From contig JAVEDU010000005.1 in the NCBI GenBank assembly GCA_030840805.1, positions 1-40,005 of the forward strand: 40,005 nt of DNA. Direction: 5' to 3'. The position numbers were made by a program, and so were the translations under genes. This DNA is from Actinomycetota bacterium. Lineage in GTDB: Bacteria > Actinomycetota > Actinomycetes > Mycobacteriales > HKI-0501. Within the stretch, counting starts at the first letter, position 1. Each line of letters opens with the position of its first letter. Below the pieces are notes generated by a model. It did not search any database, was not told the origin of the DNA, and worked only from the letters and a program-made list of their open reading frames with translations. Below are positions 3,479 to 37,795 of the stretch, piece after piece.

Positions 3479-3699
3479 GGGTCCTCCTGGGAGCGGTTCC
3501 GGCTGGGAGGTGCGGCCCGGCCAGCGTAGCCACGGTTCCCGACCGCACCGCACCGCAGCGTTCGGGCGCGGTGGCCCCGTGCGTGCCCGCCGCGGGACGG
3601 CTCGCCCGGTGTCGGCAGGGATCGGGCGGCCCGCCACCGCGGACGGGCCGGTGCCGGTGCCGTGCGGTGGACGCCGGTCCAGGGCGGTCCCCCGACCGG

Positions 3700-4002
3700 G
3701 GCCGCGCCGGCGACGGTGAGGTGACCCGGGGGCCCGCCCTGGTCCGCGAGCCGCCGGAGGGCCGGGAGCGCCGTCTCGGCGGGCAGCGGCCGGGCGGCGG
3801 GCCGGCGGCAGGAGTCCGGGGCCGATCCGGAGGCGGGACCCGTCGCCCCGGCGGACCGCGCCGCGAGCGTCGTGACGAGTCGGTAGCCGACCGCGTGCTC
3901 GAGCGCCGCGGCGGCCTCCGTCGCGCTGATTCCACCCGGGGCCTCGGCGACGAGCGTGCGCACGGCGTAGCCCCCGCCCCCGGGCCCGCGCGTGGCGGTC
4001 AC
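3700..4002 (-). pseudogene. IclR-family transcriptional regulator remnant (frameshifted)
   Basis: No intact gene fills 3479-4084. On the minus strand there are pieces of an IclR-type regulator in order. From about 3969 to 3855 the frame reads a winged helix (VRTLVAEAPGGISATEAAA, then HAVGYRLVTTLAAR), like the IclR HTH. From about 3844 to 3794 a different frame reads DGSRLRIGPGLLPPARR, the usual YRLGPGLL linker. From about 3772 the first frame resumes with ALPALRRLADQ and HLTVAGA, the start of the effector domain. Sequence down to about 3500 shows no further clear match. A GTG at 4002 could be the old start. The pieces are in the expected order, so a decayed regulator with two compensating shifts, or an assembly error, is likely. 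It may once have controlled the transketolase-like gene just downstream. Confidence 0.6.
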
Positions 4003-4030
4003 CCGAGGGGTACCGCCCGTACCTACGCGA

Positions 4031-4065
4031 ACGGAGGCCCGCCCGCGGTGCGGGCCGGCCTCCGT
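4031..4065 (-). terminator. Hairpin terminator of the short secreted protein gene
   Basis: ACGGAGGCC (4031-4039) pairs with GGCCTCCGT (4057-4065), and inside it GCCCGC pairs with GCGGGC. It begins 19 nt past the stop at 4085. Its left flank ACGCGAACGGAGGC is identical to that of the hairpin at 4604-4645, so the two terminators are related copies. Confidence 0.75.
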
Positions 4066-4084
4066 CCGGTGGTGGAGCTGGGTA

Positions 4085-4462
4085 CTACTTGACGACCCGC
4101 ACGGTGGCGGAGACGGTGCGGCCCTTGCGGGCGCCCTTCGCGTACAGCTTGACCGTGCCGAGCTTCTTGAAGGTGACCGTGATCTTGATGGTGCCACCCG
4201 CGCCGGCGCGCTTGGTGGTGACCGTCGTGGCGCGCCAGTTGGTGTACTGCTGGGTGACCTTGATGGTCTCGTTCGGGGCGAAGCCACGCGCGGAGAAGGT
4301 CACGACCTTGCCCGGCTTGACGGTGCTCGGCGAGACGGTCGCGGACGCCGCCGGTGCCGGGTAGGTCGGGGCGGCCGTGGCAACGGCCGGCGTGGCCAGC
4401 GCGACGCTGAAGGAAAGGACGGTCGCCGCGAGCGTGCGGCGCACCAGGTGGTCTCTGCGCAT
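4085..4462 (-). CDS. Secreted Ig-like/adhesion-type small protein
   Basis: A 125-residue exported protein. MRRDHLVRRTLAATVLSFSV begins a Sec signal peptide with a basic start and hydrophobic core; cleavage is likely after ATA at about residue 30. The mature part (VSPSTVKPGKVVTFSARGF, then PNETIKV) resembles a single bacterial Ig-like beta-sandwich of the kind that stabilises surface proteins, and it ends in a very basic segment (KLYAKGARKGRTVSATVRVVK region). It has no LPxTG or membrane anchor. A TTG at 4471 is in frame, but ATG at 4462 aligns with the start of the paralog at 4659-5237 and has GGAG about 9 nt upstream. The signal peptide, promoter and terminator are shared with that paralog, so the two are likely co-regulated. 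The specific role is unknown. Confidence 0.85.
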   Translation of the reverse strand: MRRDHLVRRTLAATVLSFSVALATPAVATAAPTYPAPAASATVSPSTVKPGKVVTFSARGFAPNETIKVTQQYTNWRATTVTTKRAGAGGTIKITVTFKKLGTVKLYAKGARKGRTVSATVRVVK

Positions 4463-4522
4463 CTGTGTCAACTCCAGTGAGTCAAGGGCGAGGCCAACTT
4501 GGTGACCCCCCGTGGGCGGTTC

Positions 4523-4580
4523 TAGGGGATAGGTCCCCTACAGCACGTTCGGTGAGCACGTTACATCACGCAGTGATCTG
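4523..4580 (-). promoter_or_regulatory. Conserved upstream control region of the 125-aa secreted protein
   Basis: It contains, about 70 nt before the start, the inverted repeat TAGGGGA-N4-TCCCCTA (4523-4540). About 100 nt before the start it has GTGA-N10-TCAC (4552-4569, reading GTGATGTA on the minus strand), and then ATCAC-N3-GTGAT. The same elements in the same order and spacing occur at 5298-5360 ahead of the paralogous LPxTG gene. Confidence 0.65.
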
Positions 4581-4603
4581 ACCCGAGTTTTGCGCCTGTC
4601 ACG

Positions 4604-4645
4604 CGAACGGAGGCATGCCCGCAGCTGCGGACATGCCTCCGTTCG
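4604..4645 (-). terminator. Strong hairpin terminator of the LPxTG gene
   Basis: A 14-bp perfect stem: CGAACGGAGGCATG (4604-4617) with CATGCCTCCGTTCG (4632-4645). The loop carries a further 12-nt palindrome, CCGCAGCTGCGG (4619-4630). It begins 13 nt past the stop at 4659. It is related in sequence to the hairpin at 4031-4065. Confidence 0.85.
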
Positions 4646-4658
4646 GAGCGACTACCGA

Positions 4659-5237
4659 TCAGATCTCGGCGGTCCGACGACGACGCGTGGCGGTGAAGCC
4701 GACGAGCACGGCGCCGAGGGCCAGCAGCGCGGCGCCACCGAAGGCGATCGGCTTGGCCGGACCGGTGCCGGTGACGGGCAGGTTCGCGCCGTCGGCGCCG
4801 TTCACGTCACCGTTCGTGCCACCGTTCGTGCCACCGTTCGTGCCACCGTTGTCCGGAGCGGCGACCGGGAGGACGCGGATGGCGGCGGTGACGCGGAAGT
4901 CCGAGGTGACACCGGTGGCGAAGAGGGTGGCGTCGCCGGCCAGGGGCGGCCGAACCTCAAGGCTGAAGGCGCCGAGCGAGGAGGCCACGGTCTCGTCCAG
5001 CTGGCCGCCGGAGTTCGCGTAGCCGATGCCGATGATGATCGTCTCGCCCGGCAGGAAGCCGCTGCCGCTGAAGGTCACGGTGCCGCCGGCCGTCACGGTG
5101 CCCGAGGACACCGAACCCTGTCCGGGCGGAGCCGGGTACGGCAGAGCTGCCGACGACATGCCGGGGGTGGCCACCAGCACGGCGAACATGAGGACGGCCG
5201 CCGCAAACAGGCGGCGGGCCAGGTTGTCTCTGCGCAT
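4659..5237 (-). CDS. LPxTG cell-wall-anchored surface protein
   Basis: A 192-residue sortase substrate. The signal peptide is residues 1-31 (MRRDNLARRLFAAAVLMFAV, cleaved near SSA-ALP). One Ig-like or adhesion-type domain follows (about 40-125), then a Gly/Asn/Thr stalk with repeats of NGGT (129-145), the sorting motif LPVTG at 153-157, a hydrophobic segment (about 164-183) and a basic stop (RRRR). After sortase cleavage between Thr and Gly it would be linked to peptidoglycan. ATG at 5237 is chosen over an in-frame ATG at 5336 because it starts the signal peptide, matches the start of the 125-aa paralog and has GGAG 10 nt upstream. No sortase gene is in the window. Confidence 0.92.
   Translation of the reverse strand: MRRDNLARRLFAAAVLMFAVLVATPGMSSAALPYPAPPGQGSVSSGTVTAGGTVTFSGSGFLPGETIIIGIGYANSGGQLDETVASSLGAFSLEVRPPLAGDATLFATGVTSDFRVTAAIRVLPVAAPDNGGTNGGTNGGTNGDVNGADGANLPVTGTGPAKPIAFGGAALLALGAVLVGFTATRRRRTAEI
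4808..4850. repeat. 12-bp tandem repeat in the LPxTG stalk
   Basis: Three exact copies of CACCGTTCGTGC (4808-4843) plus a partial fourth. They encode the NGGT repeats of the stalk. The number of copies could change by slippage without shifting the frame. Confidence 0.9.
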
Positions 5238-5297
5238 GTGCTCTGTACTCCGTCGAGTCCTGGGCGTGTCCGTAGTGATGAACCCCGCCGCTCGGCC

Positions 5298-5360
5298 CTT
5301 GAGGACATGTCCCTCAAGCGTACCGTCGGTGATCAAAGTACATCACTTAGTAATGATCGC
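5298..5360 (-). promoter_or_regulatory. Conserved upstream control region of the LPxTG gene
   Basis: The near-palindrome CTTGAGGACATGTCCCTCAAG spans 5298-5318, about 71 nt before the start. GTGA-N10-TCAC (5329-5346; GTGATGTA on the minus strand) lies about 100 nt before it, and ATCATT/AGTGAT half-sites lie further out. The arrangement matches 4523-4580. I infer a shared regulator or leader structure; which one is not known. Confidence 0.65.
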
Positions 5361-5365
5361 AAAGG

Positions 5366-7303
5366 CTACTTGCCACATGACACCGGCGCGGACCGGACAA
5401 TCCACGGCGTTACGGTCGGAGTGGTCCAAAACTGCGGCGTCACGGCCGCGCGGCCGGGCAGCTCGGCGGTCAGGACCGTGAGGTCCACGACGCTCCGATC
5501 GCCGGGTCCGAGATCGGCCGTGTAGTACCCCACCATCCGGTTGCGCTCCGTGCCGGTCGCGAGGGGCAGCGGCTTCCCGTCCACGGTCGCGGACTGGATC
5601 GCCCCGTCCACGGGCGCGAAGACGAGGACGTTGGTCCGCGCGACTCCGCGGACCAGACCGATCCGCCCGTCCGCGACGAGGTCGGGCAAACCGTCCGCCC
5701 GCGGCGCGGTGGAGTTGACGGTGATCCGGAGACGGATCTCGCGGCGCCGGTCCGGCCGGCAGGAGCCGCCCACGACCTCGACCGACTGCCGGAGGTAGTA
5801 GCTCATCTTCGCGCCGGTGCCGTCGTTCATGAACACGCCGATCAGCGGCGAGGGGCCGTCGCGCTCGGGGAGCTCGCCCGCCAGCACGGTGCCCTCGAGC
5901 ACCCGCTGCTCCTCGGCGCGGGTGCTCCAGACGAGGACGCGGTGCTCGTCGGCGGCCTTGGTGAGTCCGCTCACCGCGGCGCTCCCGCCGACGCGCCCGC
6001 CCGACAGGGCCTCGAAGATCGCTCGCGCGGCGGCGGCGAAGAACGCGTCCTGCGCGTCCGGGTCGCTGTACCTCGCGTACACCTCGGACAGCAGCAGCCG
6101 TACCGCGTTGTCCGCCCGCAGGGTCTCGCCGCCGGGGAGCGGCAGGCCCGCGGAGCCCTCCAGGAGGTACGACATCGCGACCGGGTCCGTGGCCACGACC
6201 GCGTCCACCCGCCCGCCGGTGCGCCGCTGGTACATCTCCTTGAAGAGCTTCGCCGCGGTGGGGAAGTGCGGCGTGAAGTTGACGTCGGCGGCGAAGGTGC
6301 CCAGGCGGTCGGTGTAGAGGTCGGTCTGGTCCGTGGTGAGCGGCAGCACCGGCTTCGGGAACATGCCGAGATCGGCCGCGGTGCCCTGTCCGACCAGCTG
6401 GATCCGGCCCCGGTCGGTACGGACGACGGCGTACGCACCGGGCAGGCCGCCGGTGGCGCGGACCTCGGCCGGGTTCTGGAACACCATGAGGTAGGTCCGC
6501 GGGCCGTCGGCGCCGAGCATGGGCGGCAACAGCGTCGTGGCCTTGCGCGCGGTGCCGGTGAGGCCCGCGGCGTCGTCCAGCTTCGCGCGGAGCCCGGTCA
6601 CCGCGTCGCGCAGCGGCGGCAGCAGGCCCTGCGTGTCGATCCCGACGACCTCTGCCCGGATGCGCCGGATCTCGTCGTCGGCCGTCCGGACGCGCGGGCC
6701 GATCCGCTGCAGCGCGGCGACATCGACGCGGCCGTTCTTCGGGGCGAACGTGGCGGGATCCAGCGAGGCGGCGGTCTCCACCAGCGGCGGGAGGGCGCGC
6801 TGGGCGAGCTCGTCGACCGCGCGGGCGGTGTCCGCCACGGCCGACACGTTGGTCCCGACCCAGGGCACCCAGCCGGCGGCCCGCCACACCGGGTCGTCGG
6901 TCTGGCTCCGGGCCGCGGCGGCCTCGTCCTGGAGGATCCCGAGGGTCAGCGTGGCGGGCTCTGTGTCGCCGGCGCGCGCCTGGGCCTGGAGCCGGGAGAC
7001 CAGCTGCGCCGAGGCCTCGAGGTGCCCCTTCGCCTGGTAACCGCGCAGGGCGAGCCACCCCACGCCGAGCAACGCGAGGATCGCCAGCGCCGCGACGGTG
7101 CGCAGCGACCAGCGGCGCACCCGTCGCGCGCGTCGCCGGCCGCGACGCTCCGCCCGGGCGGCATCCCGATCCGCCGCGCGCTCCGGCCCACCGCCGGCTT
7201 CTTCCTCCGCCGTACCGGGTGCGGCCACCTCGTCCGGCGCGTCGGGCTCGTTCTCAGAGCCCGGCTCGCGCCCGCTGTCCGTATCCGCACTATTTCGCTC
7301 CAC
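5366..7303 (-). CDS. DUF4012 domain membrane protein
   Basis: A 645-residue protein matching the actinobacterial DUF4012 family. It has a ~60-residue acidic then Arg-rich cytoplasmic head (ERRGRRRARRVRRW) and one membrane segment at about 65-87 (AALAILALLGVGWLALRGY). A long extracytoplasmic region follows with family features such as YLMVFQNPAEVRATGGLPGA, PHFPTAAKLFKEMY, VDAVVATDPVAMSYLLE and a C-terminal beta-rich part (MSYYLRQSVEV). It starts at GTG 7303 with AGGA upstream and is divergent from cysS. DUF4012 genes are often found near exopolysaccharide or surface genes, and this one sits beside two secreted-protein genes; the molecular function is not known. The family is sure; the role is not. 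Confidence 0.9.
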   Translation of the reverse strand: MERNSADTDSGREPGSENEPDAPDEVAAPGTAEEEAGGGPERAADRDAARAERRGRRRARRVRRWSLRTVAALAILALLGVGWLALRGYQAKGHLEASAQLVSRLQAQARAGDTEPATLTLGILQDEAAAARSQTDDPVWRAAGWVPWVGTNVSAVADTARAVDELAQRALPPLVETAASLDPATFAPKNGRVDVAALQRIGPRVRTADDEIRRIRAEVVGIDTQGLLPPLRDAVTGLRAKLDDAAGLTGTARKATTLLPPMLGADGPRTYLMVFQNPAEVRATGGLPGAYAVVRTDRGRIQLVGQGTAADLGMFPKPVLPLTTDQTDLYTDRLGTFAADVNFTPHFPTAAKLFKEMYQRRTGGRVDAVVATDPVAMSYLLEGSAGLPLPGGETLRADNAVRLLLSEVYARYSDPDAQDAFFAAAARAIFEALSGGRVGGSAAVSGLTKAADEHRVLVWSTRAEEQRVLEGTVLAGELPERDGPSPLIGVFMNDGTGAKMSYYLRQSVEVVGGSCRPDRRREIRLRITVNSTAPRADGLPDLVADGRIGLVRGVARTNVLVFAPVDGAIQSATVDGKPLPLATGTERNRMVGYYTADLGPGDRSVVDLTVLTAELPGRAAVTPQFWTTPTVTPWIVRSAPVSCGK

Positions 7304-7384
7304 GGCGGCGATCCTAGCCAGCGTGCGACGGGCCGTTTACGGAGTGTGGTTCACGCGCCGCGGCGGGGGAGCCGCGCGGGCCCG

Positions 7385-7390
7385 TAGACT
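7385..7390 (+). promoter_or_regulatory. -10 box of a leaderless cysS transcript
   Basis: TAGACT lies 6 nt before the GTG at 7397, and no Shine-Dalgarno sequence is present. This is the spacing expected when transcription begins at the first base of the start codon, a common actinobacterial arrangement. Confidence 0.55.
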
Positions 7391-7396
7391 CCCTGG

Positions 7397-8797
7397 GTGC
7401 CCCTCCGCCTGTACGACACGATGTCCCGGTCCGTCCGTGACTTCGAGCCCGTGACCCCGGGCCACGTCGGCATGTACCTGTGTGGGGTCACCGTGCAGGG
7501 CGCGCCGCACATCGGGCACCTGCGCAGCGGCCTGAACTTCGACGTCCTGCGCCGCTGGCTCGACTTCCGCGGCCTCGACGTCACCTACGTCCGCAACATC
7601 ACCGACATCGACGACAAGATCCTCACCAGGGCGGACGAGGAGGGCCTGCCGTGGTGGGCGCTCGGCGCCCGCAACGAGCGGATCCTCACCGCCGGGTACG
7701 AGACGCTCGGCTGCCTGCCGCCCACCTACGAGCCGCGGGCCACCGGCCACATCCCCGAGATGATCGAGATGATCAAGCGGCTGATCGATGGCGGGCACGC
7801 GTACGCCGCCGCCGGGGACGTGTACTTCGACGTGGCGTCGTACGGCGAGTACGGCGCGCTGTCCGGGCAGCGGCCCGACGAGGTCCAGCAGGGCGAGACC
7901 GCGGCCACCGGCAAGCGGAACCCGCAGGACTTCACGCTCTGGAAGGGCACCAAGCCCGGCGAGCCCGACACCGCCTCGTGGGAGACGCCGTGGGGCGCGG
8001 GCCGGCCCGGCTGGCACCTGGAGTGCTCCGCGATGGCCGGCAAGTACCTCGGCCCGGTGTTCGACATCCACGGCGGCGGGATCGACCTGGTGTTCCCGCA
8101 CCACGAGAACGAGCTGGCGCAGTCCCGCGCGGACGGACAGGAGTTCAGCCGGTACTGGCTGCACAACGCGTGGGTGACGCTGTCCGGCGAGAAGATGAGC
8201 AAGTCGCTCGGCAACACGCTGTCGATCGAGGCCGTCACCTCGCTGGTCCGCCCCGTCGAGCTGCGGTACTACCTCGTCGCGCCGCACTACCGGTCCACCA
8301 TCGAGTACTCCGAGGACGCGCTGAAGGAAGCGGCCACGGCGTACCGGCGGATCGAGGGTTTCGTCGAGCGGACGACCGAGCGGCTGGGCGAGGTCGGGCC
8401 GGGCACCCCGCCCGACCGTTTCGTGGTCGCGATGGACAACGACCTGGAGACCTCCGGCGCGCTGGCGGTCGTCCACGAGGCGGTCCGGGCGGGGAACGCG
8501 GCGCTCGCCGACGGTGACGACGACGCCGCGCGGGTGCGTGCCGCCGAGGTCCGCGCGATGCTGGACGTGCTCGGCCTGGACCCGCTCGACCCGCGCTGGC
8601 GGGCCGGTACGGACGACCGGCTCCACGGCGTGGTCGACGCGCTCGTGCGGGTGACGCTCGACGCCCGCCAGGCGGCGCGCGCACGAAAGGACTTCGCGGC
8701 GGCAGACGCCATTCGCGATCAGCTCAAGGCGGCCGGTGTGGTCGTCGAGGACACCGCGGCAGGGCCGCGGTGGACGCTTGCAGATGGAGACGTGTAG
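7397..8797 (+). CDS. cysS: Cysteinyl-tRNA synthetase
   Basis: A 466-residue class I aminoacyl-tRNA synthetase that charges tRNA-Cys. Seen: [13 protein letters not shown] with Cys29 (zinc ligand) and HIGH at 38-41, further zinc-site residues in WHLECS and HHENELAQS, and KMSKS at 266-270, followed by the C-terminal tRNA-binding region ending [14 protein letters not shown]. The length is normal for bacterial CysRS and longer than MshC, the mycothiol-pathway relative, so CysS is preferred. The GTG start at 7397 appears leaderless. It is immediately followed by rlmB; the stop and the next ATG are adjacent, so the two are one operon. Confidence 0.96.
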
Positions 8798-14873: not shown

Positions 14874-14900
14874 CGTATGGTTGCGCCAAGTAACCATACG
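14874..14900. promoter_or_regulatory. Inverted repeat in the leader of the first LCP gene
   Basis: CGTATGGTT (14874-14882) and AACCATACG (14892-14900) are perfect 9-bp arms with a 9-nt gap, ending 25 nt before the preferred start at 14926. It could be an operator or an RNA hairpin. A possible -10 box, TAGCCT, lies at 14838-14843. A related half-site, GTACCATAC, lies at 24731-24739. Confidence 0.5.
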
Positions 14901-14925
14901 AAGTCCGAGGGTGAACGAGGGCGAT

Positions 14926-15921
14926 GTGGTCGAGCAGGACAAGTCCGTGCTGACGAGTGCGTTCGAGCAACCCGAGGAGAACCCGGCGCCACGCCGGCGG
15001 CGCTCGACCCTGGTCAGGGTGCTGATCGGCATGGTGGTCGCGGTCGTGGTCATCGTCGCCGGTACCGCGGGCGCCGGCGTGTACTTCGCGAACAAGCTCG
15101 ACAAGAACATCGAGCGGATCGGCAACGTCTTCGGGCCGCTGCCCCGGGAGGGGCGCCCGGGCAAGGAGCCGGTGGCCGCCGACGCACTGAACATCCTGCT
15201 CGTGGGCTCCGACGTGCGCGCGAAGGGCCAGACCACCGGCTCGGCCGGTACGCCGACCGGTGGCAGCGAGCGCTCCGACACCATCATGATCGTGCACATC
15301 CCGGCGGACCGGAAGCATGCGTACGTCGTCTCGCTGCCCCGCGACTCGTGGGTCCCCGTCCCCGGCCGCGGCATCACGAAGATCAACGCGGCGTACGCGT
15401 ACGGCGGTCCGACCCTGCTGGTCCGCACCATCGAGCAGTTGACCGACGTGCAGATCGATCACTACGCGCAGGTCGACTTCGCCGGCTTCACGTCGATGAC
15501 CGACGCGGTCGGTGGCGTGGACATCCCGGCGGCGGGGCACCTCGACGGCGAGTCGGCGCTGGCGTACGTCCGCGAGCGGAAGACCCTCGCGAACGGTGAC
15601 TTCGACCGGATCAAGCGCCAGCACCGGTTCCTGCGGGCCCTGATGTCCCGGGCCAAGCCGACCGACCCCGTGGCGTTCACGAAGCTGATGGACGCGGTGA
15701 CCCGGTCGGTGAGCATCGACGACGGCATGTCCGGCGGTGACCTGCGGTCGCTCGCGCTCGGTATGCGGAGCGTCCGGGCCGGAGACATCCACTTCCACAC
15801 CGCGCCGACCAAGGGCACCGGGATGGTCGGCGACCAGAGCGTCGTGTTCCTCGACCCGTCCGCGGACCGGCTGCTGTGGGAGGCCATCCGCAACGACCGG
15901 ATGTCGACCTGGAAGAAGTAG
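14926..15921 (+). CDS. LCP (LytR-CpsA-Psr) family glycopolymer transferase, copy 1
   Basis: A 331-residue membrane-anchored protein. It has a short cytoplasmic head with RRRR, one membrane segment (about 29-53) and an extracellular LCP domain with ILLVGSDVRA (90-99), SDTIMI (117-122), LPRDSWVPV (137-145), YVRERK (214-219) and DFDRIKRQ (225-232). These are the Asp/Arg residues that bind the polyprenyl pyrophosphate and metal. LCP enzymes move polysaccharide from a lipid carrier to peptidoglycan. GTG at 14926 is preferred (GAGGG 4 nt upstream) over in-frame GTG 14911 and TTG 14881. It opens the polysaccharide locus, and a close paralog at 36755-37795 closes it. Confidence 0.93.
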   Translation: MVEQDKSVLTSAFEQPEENPAPRRRRSTLVRVLIGMVVAVVVIVAGTAGAGVYFANKLDKNIERIGNVFGPLPREGRPGKEPVAADALNILLVGSDVRAKGQTTGSAGTPTGGSERSDTIMIVHIPADRKHAYVVSLPRDSWVPVPGRGITKINAAYAYGGPTLLVRTIEQLTDVQIDHYAQVDFAGFTSMTDAVGGVDIPAAGHLDGESALAYVRERKTLANGDFDRIKRQHRFLRALMSRAKPTDPVAFTKLMDAVTRSVSIDDGMSGGDLRSLALGMRSVRAGDIHFHTAPTKGTGMVGDQSVVFLDPSADRLLWEAIRNDRMSTWKK

Positions 15922-36754: not shown

Positions 36755-37795
36755 GTGAGTTACCAGCCCCAGCCCGACGACGGGCGCGGTGCCGTGTACG
36801 GCCGTGCGAGCGTCCGGCCCCGTTCGGGTGACGGAGGCGTCCCGCGCGGAACCGACGGCCCCTCGCGCGGAACCGGTCGCGCCGGCGGTTTGCCGCCCGC
36901 CCCGCCCCGCCGGATCCGGTGGGCCCGCGTGCTCCTGGCGCTCGGCGTGCTCGCGCTGGTGCTCGTGGTCGGCACGGTGGCGACCGGCATGTACCTGTTC
37001 AACAAGTTCGACGGGCAGGTGAAGCGCGTCGGGGACGTGTTCGCCGCCCTGCCGGAGAACGAGCGACCGGCGAAGTCGGTCGGCGGCGCGACGAACATCC
37101 TGCTGGTCGGCTTCGACTCGTGGCGGAACAGCGTGCCGCGGTCCGACACGATCATGCTCATCCACCTCCCGGCGGACCGGAAGAAGGCGTACGTCGTCTC
37201 GATCCCGCGCGACTCCTGGGTGCCGGTGCCGGGTTACCGCCGGGCCAAGATCAACTCGGCGTTCGCCTGGGGCGGTCCGACGCTGCTGATCAAGACGATC
37301 GAGCAGTTCACCGACGTGCGGATCGATCACTTCGCACAGGTGTCGTTCTCCGGGTTCGAGGCGATGACCGACGCCGTCGGGGGCGTCGACATGCCCGGTG
37401 CGGGGCATCTCGACGGCAAGTCCGCGCTGAAGTACGTCCGGGAGCGCAAGACCCTCCCCGGCGGCGACTTCGACCGGATCAAGCGGCAGCAGACCTTCAT
37501 CAAGGTGCTGATGAAGGAGACCTCCGGCAGCATGAACAATCCGGTCGCACTCGTGAAGCTCGGCGACGCGGTCAGCAAGGCCGTCAGCGTCGACTCCGGG
37601 CTCACCGGAAGCGAGCTGCGGTCCCTGGCGCTGAGCGCGCGGGGGCTGCGAGGCCCGTCGGTGGTGTTCTCGACGGCACCCACCACCGGTACCGGGATGA
37701 TCGGCGACCAGAGCGTCGTGTTCCTCGACAAGTCGGCCGGGATCAGGCTGTGGACGGCGATGCGCGAGGACCGGATGGCGGACCTGAAGGGCTGA
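36755..37795 (+). CDS. LCP family glycopolymer transferase, copy 2
   Basis: A 346-residue membrane protein with a longer Gly/Pro/Arg-rich cytoplasmic head (1-55), one membrane segment (about 58-82) and an LCP domain: ILLVGFDSWRN, SDTIMLIHLPADRKKAYVV (130-148), PRDSWVPVPG (151-160), YVRERKTLPGGDFDRIKRQQ. The GTG start has GAGGAA upstream; a possible -10 box TAACCT lies at 36710-36715. It is closely similar to copy 1 along its whole outer domain and should do the same transfer of polymer to the wall. One may serve the polysaccharide made here and the other a different polymer. Confidence 0.94.
   Translation: MSYQPQPDDGRGAVYGRASVRPRSGDGGVPRGTDGPSRGTGRAGGLPPAPPRRIRWARVLLALGVLALVLVVGTVATGMYLFNKFDGQVKRVGDVFAALPENERPAKSVGGATNILLVGFDSWRNSVPRSDTIMLIHLPADRKKAYVVSIPRDSWVPVPGYRRAKINSAFAWGGPTLLIKTIEQFTDVRIDHFAQVSFSGFEAMTDAVGGVDMPGAGHLDGKSALKYVRERKTLPGGDFDRIKRQQTFIKVLMKETSGSMNNPVALVKLGDAVSKAVSVDSGLTGSELRSLALSARGLRGPSVVFSTAPTTGTGMIGDQSVVFLDKSAGIRLWTAMREDRMADLKG

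Follow-up and report, generated by a model that had tools for sequence, protein, structure and literature searches.

The window, that is, the whole stretch of DNA analysed in this work, corresponds to an entire contig (C62) of 40,005 bases, one of the 111 contigs of a 4.46-Mb genome. Its GC content is 72%, and its genes have actinobacterial relatives. Three genes of the minus strand follow one another in the order DUF4012, B and A. The first of them (5366-7303) encodes a membrane protein of 645 aa matching PF13196 (E=5.3e-48), and its stop codon is separated by 128 nt from the start of gene B (4659-5237; P0002, 192 aa). Gene A (4085-4462; P0001, 125 aa) encodes a basic secreted paralogue of B without anchor. 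Upstream of both B and A, and on the same strand, a GTGA-N10-TCAC box was located by sequence and genome pattern search: box A, GTGATGTAACGTGCTCAC (4552-4569), begins at -107 with respect to the ATG, and box B, GTGATGTACTTTGATCAC (5329-5346), at -109. Between box and gene there is a leader dyad, analysed by folding and simulation, which in A is TAGGGGACCTATCCCCTA (4523-4540, stem of 7 pairs, beginning at -78) and in B is CTTGAGGGACATGTCCTCAAG (5298-5318, stem of 8 pairs, beginning at -81). Each gene is followed by a terminator-like hairpin, at 4028-4068 for A and at 4604-4645 for B. The positions that an initial annotation of this DNA had assigned to the boxes, dyads, hairpins and the 14-mer common to both hairpins (4025 and 4601) were all correct.

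Protein B is built like a sortase substrate, with signal peptide, Ig-like domain, GGTN repeats, an LPXTG-type motif (LPVTG, 4767-4781), a hydrophobic helix and a basic tail, the predicted helices covering residues 3-22 and 169-190. Judged from these parts of its sequence, B is a sortase substrate. A single PF04203 match (G000:C47:25724-26107, locus L203) represents the sortase in this genome, which is rated 95% complete; by eye, frames for a glutamine amidotransferase and for a PASTA-like protein lie near it. The linker of GGTN repeats that precedes the sorting signal is encoded by a 24-base repeat present three times in overlapping copies with a spacing of 12 bases (4798-4845). Protein A has no C-terminal sorting signal and ends directly after its Ig-like domain, at the point where that of B also stops. 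The mature part of A is basic (17 K+R, 1 D+E, pI 11.5) whereas the domain of B is acidic (3 K+R, 6 D+E, pI 4.3). The predicted B domain aligned with macromomycin (2mcm; Z 11.3, rmsd 2.1, 85 residues) and also matched neocarzinostatin. Since other Ig-like domains were found at most one Z unit away, this resemblance implies no chromophore or drug function. No Pfam family was reported for B at E up to 1, and the score of A against PF00960 (E=0.018, 15.5 bits) was below the Pfam gathering cut-off of 25.

Proteins A and B are 41% identical over 124 aa (BLASTP, E=1e-24), which covers nearly all of A and extends beyond the signal peptide into the mature domain. The initial annotation had described the signal peptide and the flanking DNA elements as shared; the homology of the mature domain and the sorting signal of B are additions to that description. 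At DNA level, the 114 nt at the gene starts are 71% identical. The upstream regions share 77 of 131 aligned positions. Identity amounts to 22 of 29 positions for the box block, 19 of 32 for the dyad block and 30 of 54 for the remaining leader, and the homology fades further upstream of the box block (6 of 16). When the two 140-nt upstream regions were aligned, the Smith-Waterman score was 28, against a maximum of 22 in 100 dinucleotide-shuffled pairs. Downstream of the genes, the 14-mer ACGCGAACGGAGGC begins at 4025 and at 4601, each copy being the outer arm of a hairpin, and these are its only two exact copies in the 4.46-Mb genome. The outer arms of the two hairpins have 20 of 22 bases in common, their arms are 19 and 21 nt long and the folded stretches reach -45.2 and -43.2 kcal/mol. 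A stable GC-rich hairpin is therefore present after A and after B, as an intrinsic terminator would have, but the terminator scan found no T run after the stem and the sequence behind both stems also lacks one. Because the homology comprises upstream regions, reading frames and hairpins, the whole unit must have been copied once. There is hardly any doubt that A and B are old tandem paralogues copied as a complete unit, including the 5' block with the box, the leader, the reading frame and the terminator-like hairpin, as the proposal of a duplicated transcription unit had anticipated.

The distribution of the third gene was studied by scanning genome contigs with a profile of the DUF4012 alignment, which gave 177 relatives; the same kind of scan with B as query found no relative. 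In the best 80 of these 177, mostly from Micromonospora, a frame with a sorting signal starts at most 341 bases past the DUF4012 stop codon, on the same strand, in 75 loci, and these positives span 14 named genera as counted from the titles. The five misses were L093, L100, L144, L163 and L169, and in L144 just 225 bases remain to the contig end. A stricter detector, applied anywhere in the locus, recognized a sorting signal in 74 of the 80 (L103 being additionally missed), versus one of 62 control loci of the window's own genome (181 kb), which are shorter than the 80. Matches to A or B by phmmer (E up to 0.01) were obtained in 60 of these 80 loci, always in the gene adjoining DUF4012. None of the 80 had two homologues, so that the tandem pair is, within this sample, peculiar to the genome of the window. 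In a second set of loci from relatives, the strict detector identified a sorting-signal gene in 20 of 29 and detected none in the other 9; 18 of the 20 lie downstream on the same strand, one upstream on the same strand (L084) and one upstream on the other strand (L085). Both sets partly overlap (for instance, the contigs of G097 and L143 are equal in length) and, as a consequence, the two counts are not independent. Finally, 9 of 120 other relatives were matched by B as well as by DUF4012 at the cut-offs applied, the two matches being adjacent in five of the nine (G010, G028, G050, G088 and G097) and in reversed order in G088; the family members G001 and G002 gave neither match at the same cut-offs. 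In the sampled actinobacteria, DUF4012 has a near-constant partner, which is a sorting-signal Ig-like protein. Given that A extends no further than the Ig-like domain of B, and that the anchor is present in nearly all DUF4012 neighbours elsewhere, A has most simply lost its anchor.

Some individual loci showed features of their own. The layout of the window is mirrored in G050 (C1:3338013-3341769), where a single sorting-signal gene follows two tandem DUF4012 genes. The neighbour of DUF4012 in the Mangrovihabitans locus L093 (5955-6578) is a homologue with a degenerate sorting motif that is very basic like A (net +23 in the region counted). In the Arthrobacter locus L163, the gene after DUF4012, near 5730-6084, seems disrupted; a frame with a sorting-signal-like tail is present there and no phmmer homologue was read.

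The AlphaFold2 model of DUF4012 had a mean pLDDT of 86.3 and a pTM of 0.81, with a core at about residues 260-470. Among the 50 entries listed by VIA-align, ranks 1 to 23 cover model residues 259-471 with 155-186 residues and Z values of 8.5-12.0, to be read against the Z of 7-8 that unrelated models commonly reach and the Z of 8.4 of the first unrelated row in this search. Fifteen of these 23 entries are titled LCP (LytR-CpsA-Psr), Tag or MsrR, and include TagT, TagU, TagV and the LcpA of A. oris, the latter (5v8c) with Z 9.2, rmsd 4.0 and 163 aligned residues. The remaining eight are structural-genomics entries which we take to be LCP members. The LCP fold was thus found for DUF4012 on its predicted model. 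By Foldseek alone, LCP chains appeared mixed with aminopeptidases, the best E value being 6.2e-4, to 3nxh. At sequence level, PF13196 was the only Pfam family reported and no PF03816 match appeared at E up to 1. Comparison of the whole-length profile with the five LCP proteins of the genome aligned only another stretch, with a probability of 36%, and when the core alone was compared with LCP, 77 columns were aligned with probabilities of 69% (local) and 4.5% (global). R269, R282 and R455 are invariant across 31 sequences, and E280 also belongs to the invariant residues; the core profile alignment is partial and gives no mapping of them onto the canonical LCP arginines. A search of solved structures with the DUF4012 sequence gave a single match, at E=1.1. 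Taken together, the DUF4012 core resembles LCP enzymes in its predicted fold, with slight support from sequence.

The window also contains a capsule-type gene cluster that encodes Wzy, Wzz with a kinase domain, a UDP-glucose dehydrogenase, epimerases, an acyltransferase and two ordinary LCP proteins. The LCP genes, both on the plus strand, lie at 14881-15921, inside the cluster (PF03816, E=1.4e-41), and at 36755-37795 (E=2.7e-40). The genome has five LCP genes, as given by 7 PF03816 matches in 5 frames. The region 14881-37795, with an LCP gene at each end, looks like a capsule or exopolysaccharide cluster, and a low-molecular-weight phosphatase and an acyltransferase-SGNH protein are also encoded there. 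To sample the context elsewhere, 12 DUF4012 loci were laid out and 20 frames from 8 of them were scanned. Genes for glycosyltransferases, Wzz or UDP-glucose dehydrogenase were identified in six of these eight loci of other genera (L092, L124, L157, L158, L162 and L164), and no polysaccharide gene was found in the scanned frames of L107 and L165.

We tentatively propose, by analogy with the action of LcpA on GspA and on the strength of the model, that DUF4012 could be an LCP-like glycopolymer transferase having B as acceptor or partner. The slight sequence support and the mixed Foldseek result count against this proposal, as do the relatives' loci in which a sorting-signal gene is undetected or lies upstream. 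A different assignment within one surface-polysaccharide pathway is also credible, though far from assured, in which DUF4012 would be a structural or export component and the anchored protein a passive binder or spacer. It would fit with an LCP resemblance that comes from a predicted fold and is weak by sequence, with the presence of DUF4012 in an EPS locus of Bifidobacterium (PMC5412050), and with the strongly basic character of A, which could suit a protein that binds an anionic polymer. However, DUF4012 is paired one-to-one with a sorting-signal gene, a closer linkage than a general EPS factor would require.

Concerning the DNA in front of A and B, both boxes contain a TAnnnT hexamer in the same place (TAACGT at 4558-4563 in A and TACTTT at 5335-5340 in B). 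With such hexamers, transcription would start near the TCAC half, and the box would be an operator lying over the promoter. The dyad would then form a hairpin within the 5' leader, which would run for roughly 90 nt up to a GGAG motif. A consensus scan found no promoter of the TTGACA/TATAAT (sigma-70) type. Going by the sequence, the shared box is probably an inherited promoter with an overlapping operator; as neither box nor dyad appeared in any orthologue examined, the case for a promoter comes from these two copies.

A more demanding interpretation is that box and leader hairpin form a two-part control element under selection, specific to A and B, in which a dedicated dimeric regulator would act together with an RNA hairpin. 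Both parts have persisted although the proteins diverged to 41% identity, and the box block is better conserved than the leader behind it (22 of 29 versus 49 of 86 identical positions), but this excess is marginal (Fisher p=0.054). As for the hairpin, the initial annotation had reasoned that inverted repeats at about -70 which differ in sequence and keep their symmetry would be expected under selection for structure or for dyad binding. Both repeats are indeed present and symmetric. However, their pairing registers are one base apart, and when mutated copies of A were simulated, 4.4-4.7% of them had a stem of 8 pairs or more and 11.6-12.6% one of 7 pairs or more. With a register shift and a comparable stem in about 4-13% of the simulated copies, the conserved symmetry is weak evidence for selection; two sequences, with a chance of about 5-12% and with no dyad in six homologous gaps, do not establish it.

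The specificity of these elements was analysed at several levels. The bare GTGA-N10-TCAC pattern occurs at 23 sites in the genome, compared with 7 for the reversed control, and is therefore unspecific, while the extended box GTGATGTANNNTGNTCACCGA has only two perfect sites, those of A and B, and a further one with three mismatches. Two of the other 21 bare sites were inspected: one, in contig C109, lies inside a frame of 371 aa, and for the other, an AT-rich site in contig C81, the frames listed include none behind the site that would encode a short secreted protein. Their setting is not comparable to that of A and B, and a genome-wide GTGA-N10-TCAC regulon was rejected. A covariance model of the 140-column leader detected, at E up to 10, the A and B leaders alone in their own genome, and a single match among the order's 396 other genomes (G186, E=0.0024 per genome), which is of the size expected by chance. 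The suggestion of a shared RNA element or regulon consequently found no backing in this search. In 393 other genomes of the class there was one box site with one mismatch (L214). It begins 165 bases ahead of a frame that by eye resembles an XRE-type regulator, and such a single match is indistinguishable from chance. The orthologues examined gave no sign of conserved boxes: six homologous DUF4012-neighbour intergenic regions of other genomes contained neither box nor dyad; nor was GTGA-N10-TCAC present inside the DUF4012-neighbour gap in any of the 80 loci, the best of 177. Rfam gave no element at the leader, and its sole match in 3500-7500 at E up to 1 was to a microRNA family, on the terminator hairpin of B (24.2 bits versus a gathering score of 79). 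Thus, within the samples searched, the box and the terminator arm mark a local duplication of the lineage of the window and not a wider regulon. The restriction of the extended box to two sites of the genome would also be expected of a dedicated two-part element; with no orthologous copy in the gaps examined, no convincing one in the order and class samples and no further regulon member, we consider such an element rather unlikely.

It is less likely still that B is mainly the second gene of a DUF4012-B operon, so that the intergenic box and dyad would be remnants or processing sites, promoter use being confined to A. The 128-nt gap between DUF4012 and B has no long inverted repeat, and in most Micromonospora loci the corresponding gap is of about 13 bases, an operon-like arrangement. 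Nevertheless, A has the same block immediately behind a strong hairpin. Finally, chance similarity between A and B in a sequence of 72% GC, for which the 23 bare boxes of the genome and the 43 exact 7-bp dyads of the window could be invoked, is refuted by an alignment score above all 100 shuffles, by a box and a 14-mer limited to two sites and by the homology of the proteins.

The explanation that we favour begins with an ancestral gene encoding an Ig-like protein that was secreted and anchored by sortase. This gene would have been the partner of the upstream DUF4012 gene and would have undergone tandem duplication, with promoter region, leader and terminator included. B would retain the ancestral form, with the LPVTG anchor and adjoining DUF4012, and A would have lost the anchor to become a basic secreted protein. 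The set would constitute a cell-surface polysaccharide module, in which DUF4012 may transfer the glycopolymer of the neighbouring cluster to the anchored B, or hold it there. As a whole, this combination of a tandem duplication of the unit and a surface-polysaccharide module with DUF4012 and B seems to us quite probable. A broader and speculative generalization, unlikely to hold in all its parts, is that DUF4012 forms a second branch of the LCP fold, distinct in sequence, each member being dedicated to the adjacent sorting-signal protein and joining capsule-type polysaccharide to it. Many actinobacteria would then display protein-linked surface polysaccharide, and in the window the acceptor would be duplicated, one copy having become a basic, soluble companion whose promoter follows the same design. 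The duplicated unit alone is a case of ordinary evolution, and the DUF4012 partnership is the more useful result. If the partner were the substrate of DUF4012, many Actinobacteria would be expected to glycosylate anchored proteins in the LCP manner; and because enzyme and substrate would be neighbours, the role of DUF4012 can be tested directly.

Several known systems can be compared with this locus. The predicted fold of the B domain and the weak profile score of A recall the neocarzinostatin and macromomycin apoproteins (PF00960); in contrast to these, the profile score here is below the cut-off and the orthologues are wall-anchored and placed beside DUF4012. CwpA and CwpB, class E sortase substrates of Actinoplanes missouriensis, are alike (PMC13251363) in being secreted proteins of an actinobacterium with C-terminal sorting signals, but the sorting motif of B is LPVTG. 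With regard to DUF4012 itself, published work presents it as an auxiliary protein of a Bifidobacterium EPS cluster (PMC5412050), a role repeated in a survey (PMC6744442), and as one of the hub genes of a data set on biofilms (PMC7917626). In the extracts that our search covered, with subscription literature outside it, nothing was found that connects DUF4012 with LCP enzymes or with partners carrying a sorting signal. Compared with LytR-CpsA-Psr transferases (PF03816), DUF4012 shares the predicted core fold and a site beside capsule-type genes, in a genome with five LCP genes, but misses their sequence profile. The closest parallel is A. oris, in which LcpA mediates the glycosylation of GspA, a sortase-anchored protein encoded by an adjacent gene (PMC6381275; PMC7831098), a case which a review names as so far unique for LCP-type glycosylation of an anchored protein (PMC7831098). 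Unlike LcpA, DUF4012 belongs to another sequence family without PF03816 match, its activity is only predicted, and its core is preceded by a long helical N-terminal part and followed by an additional beta part; the partner, unlike GspA, is here small, Ig-like and encoded by a duplicated gene. Both systems nevertheless agree in their neighbouring genes for a membrane protein, whose predicted fold is LCP-like in DUF4012, and for a surface protein with a sorting signal, in a genome provided with a sortase.
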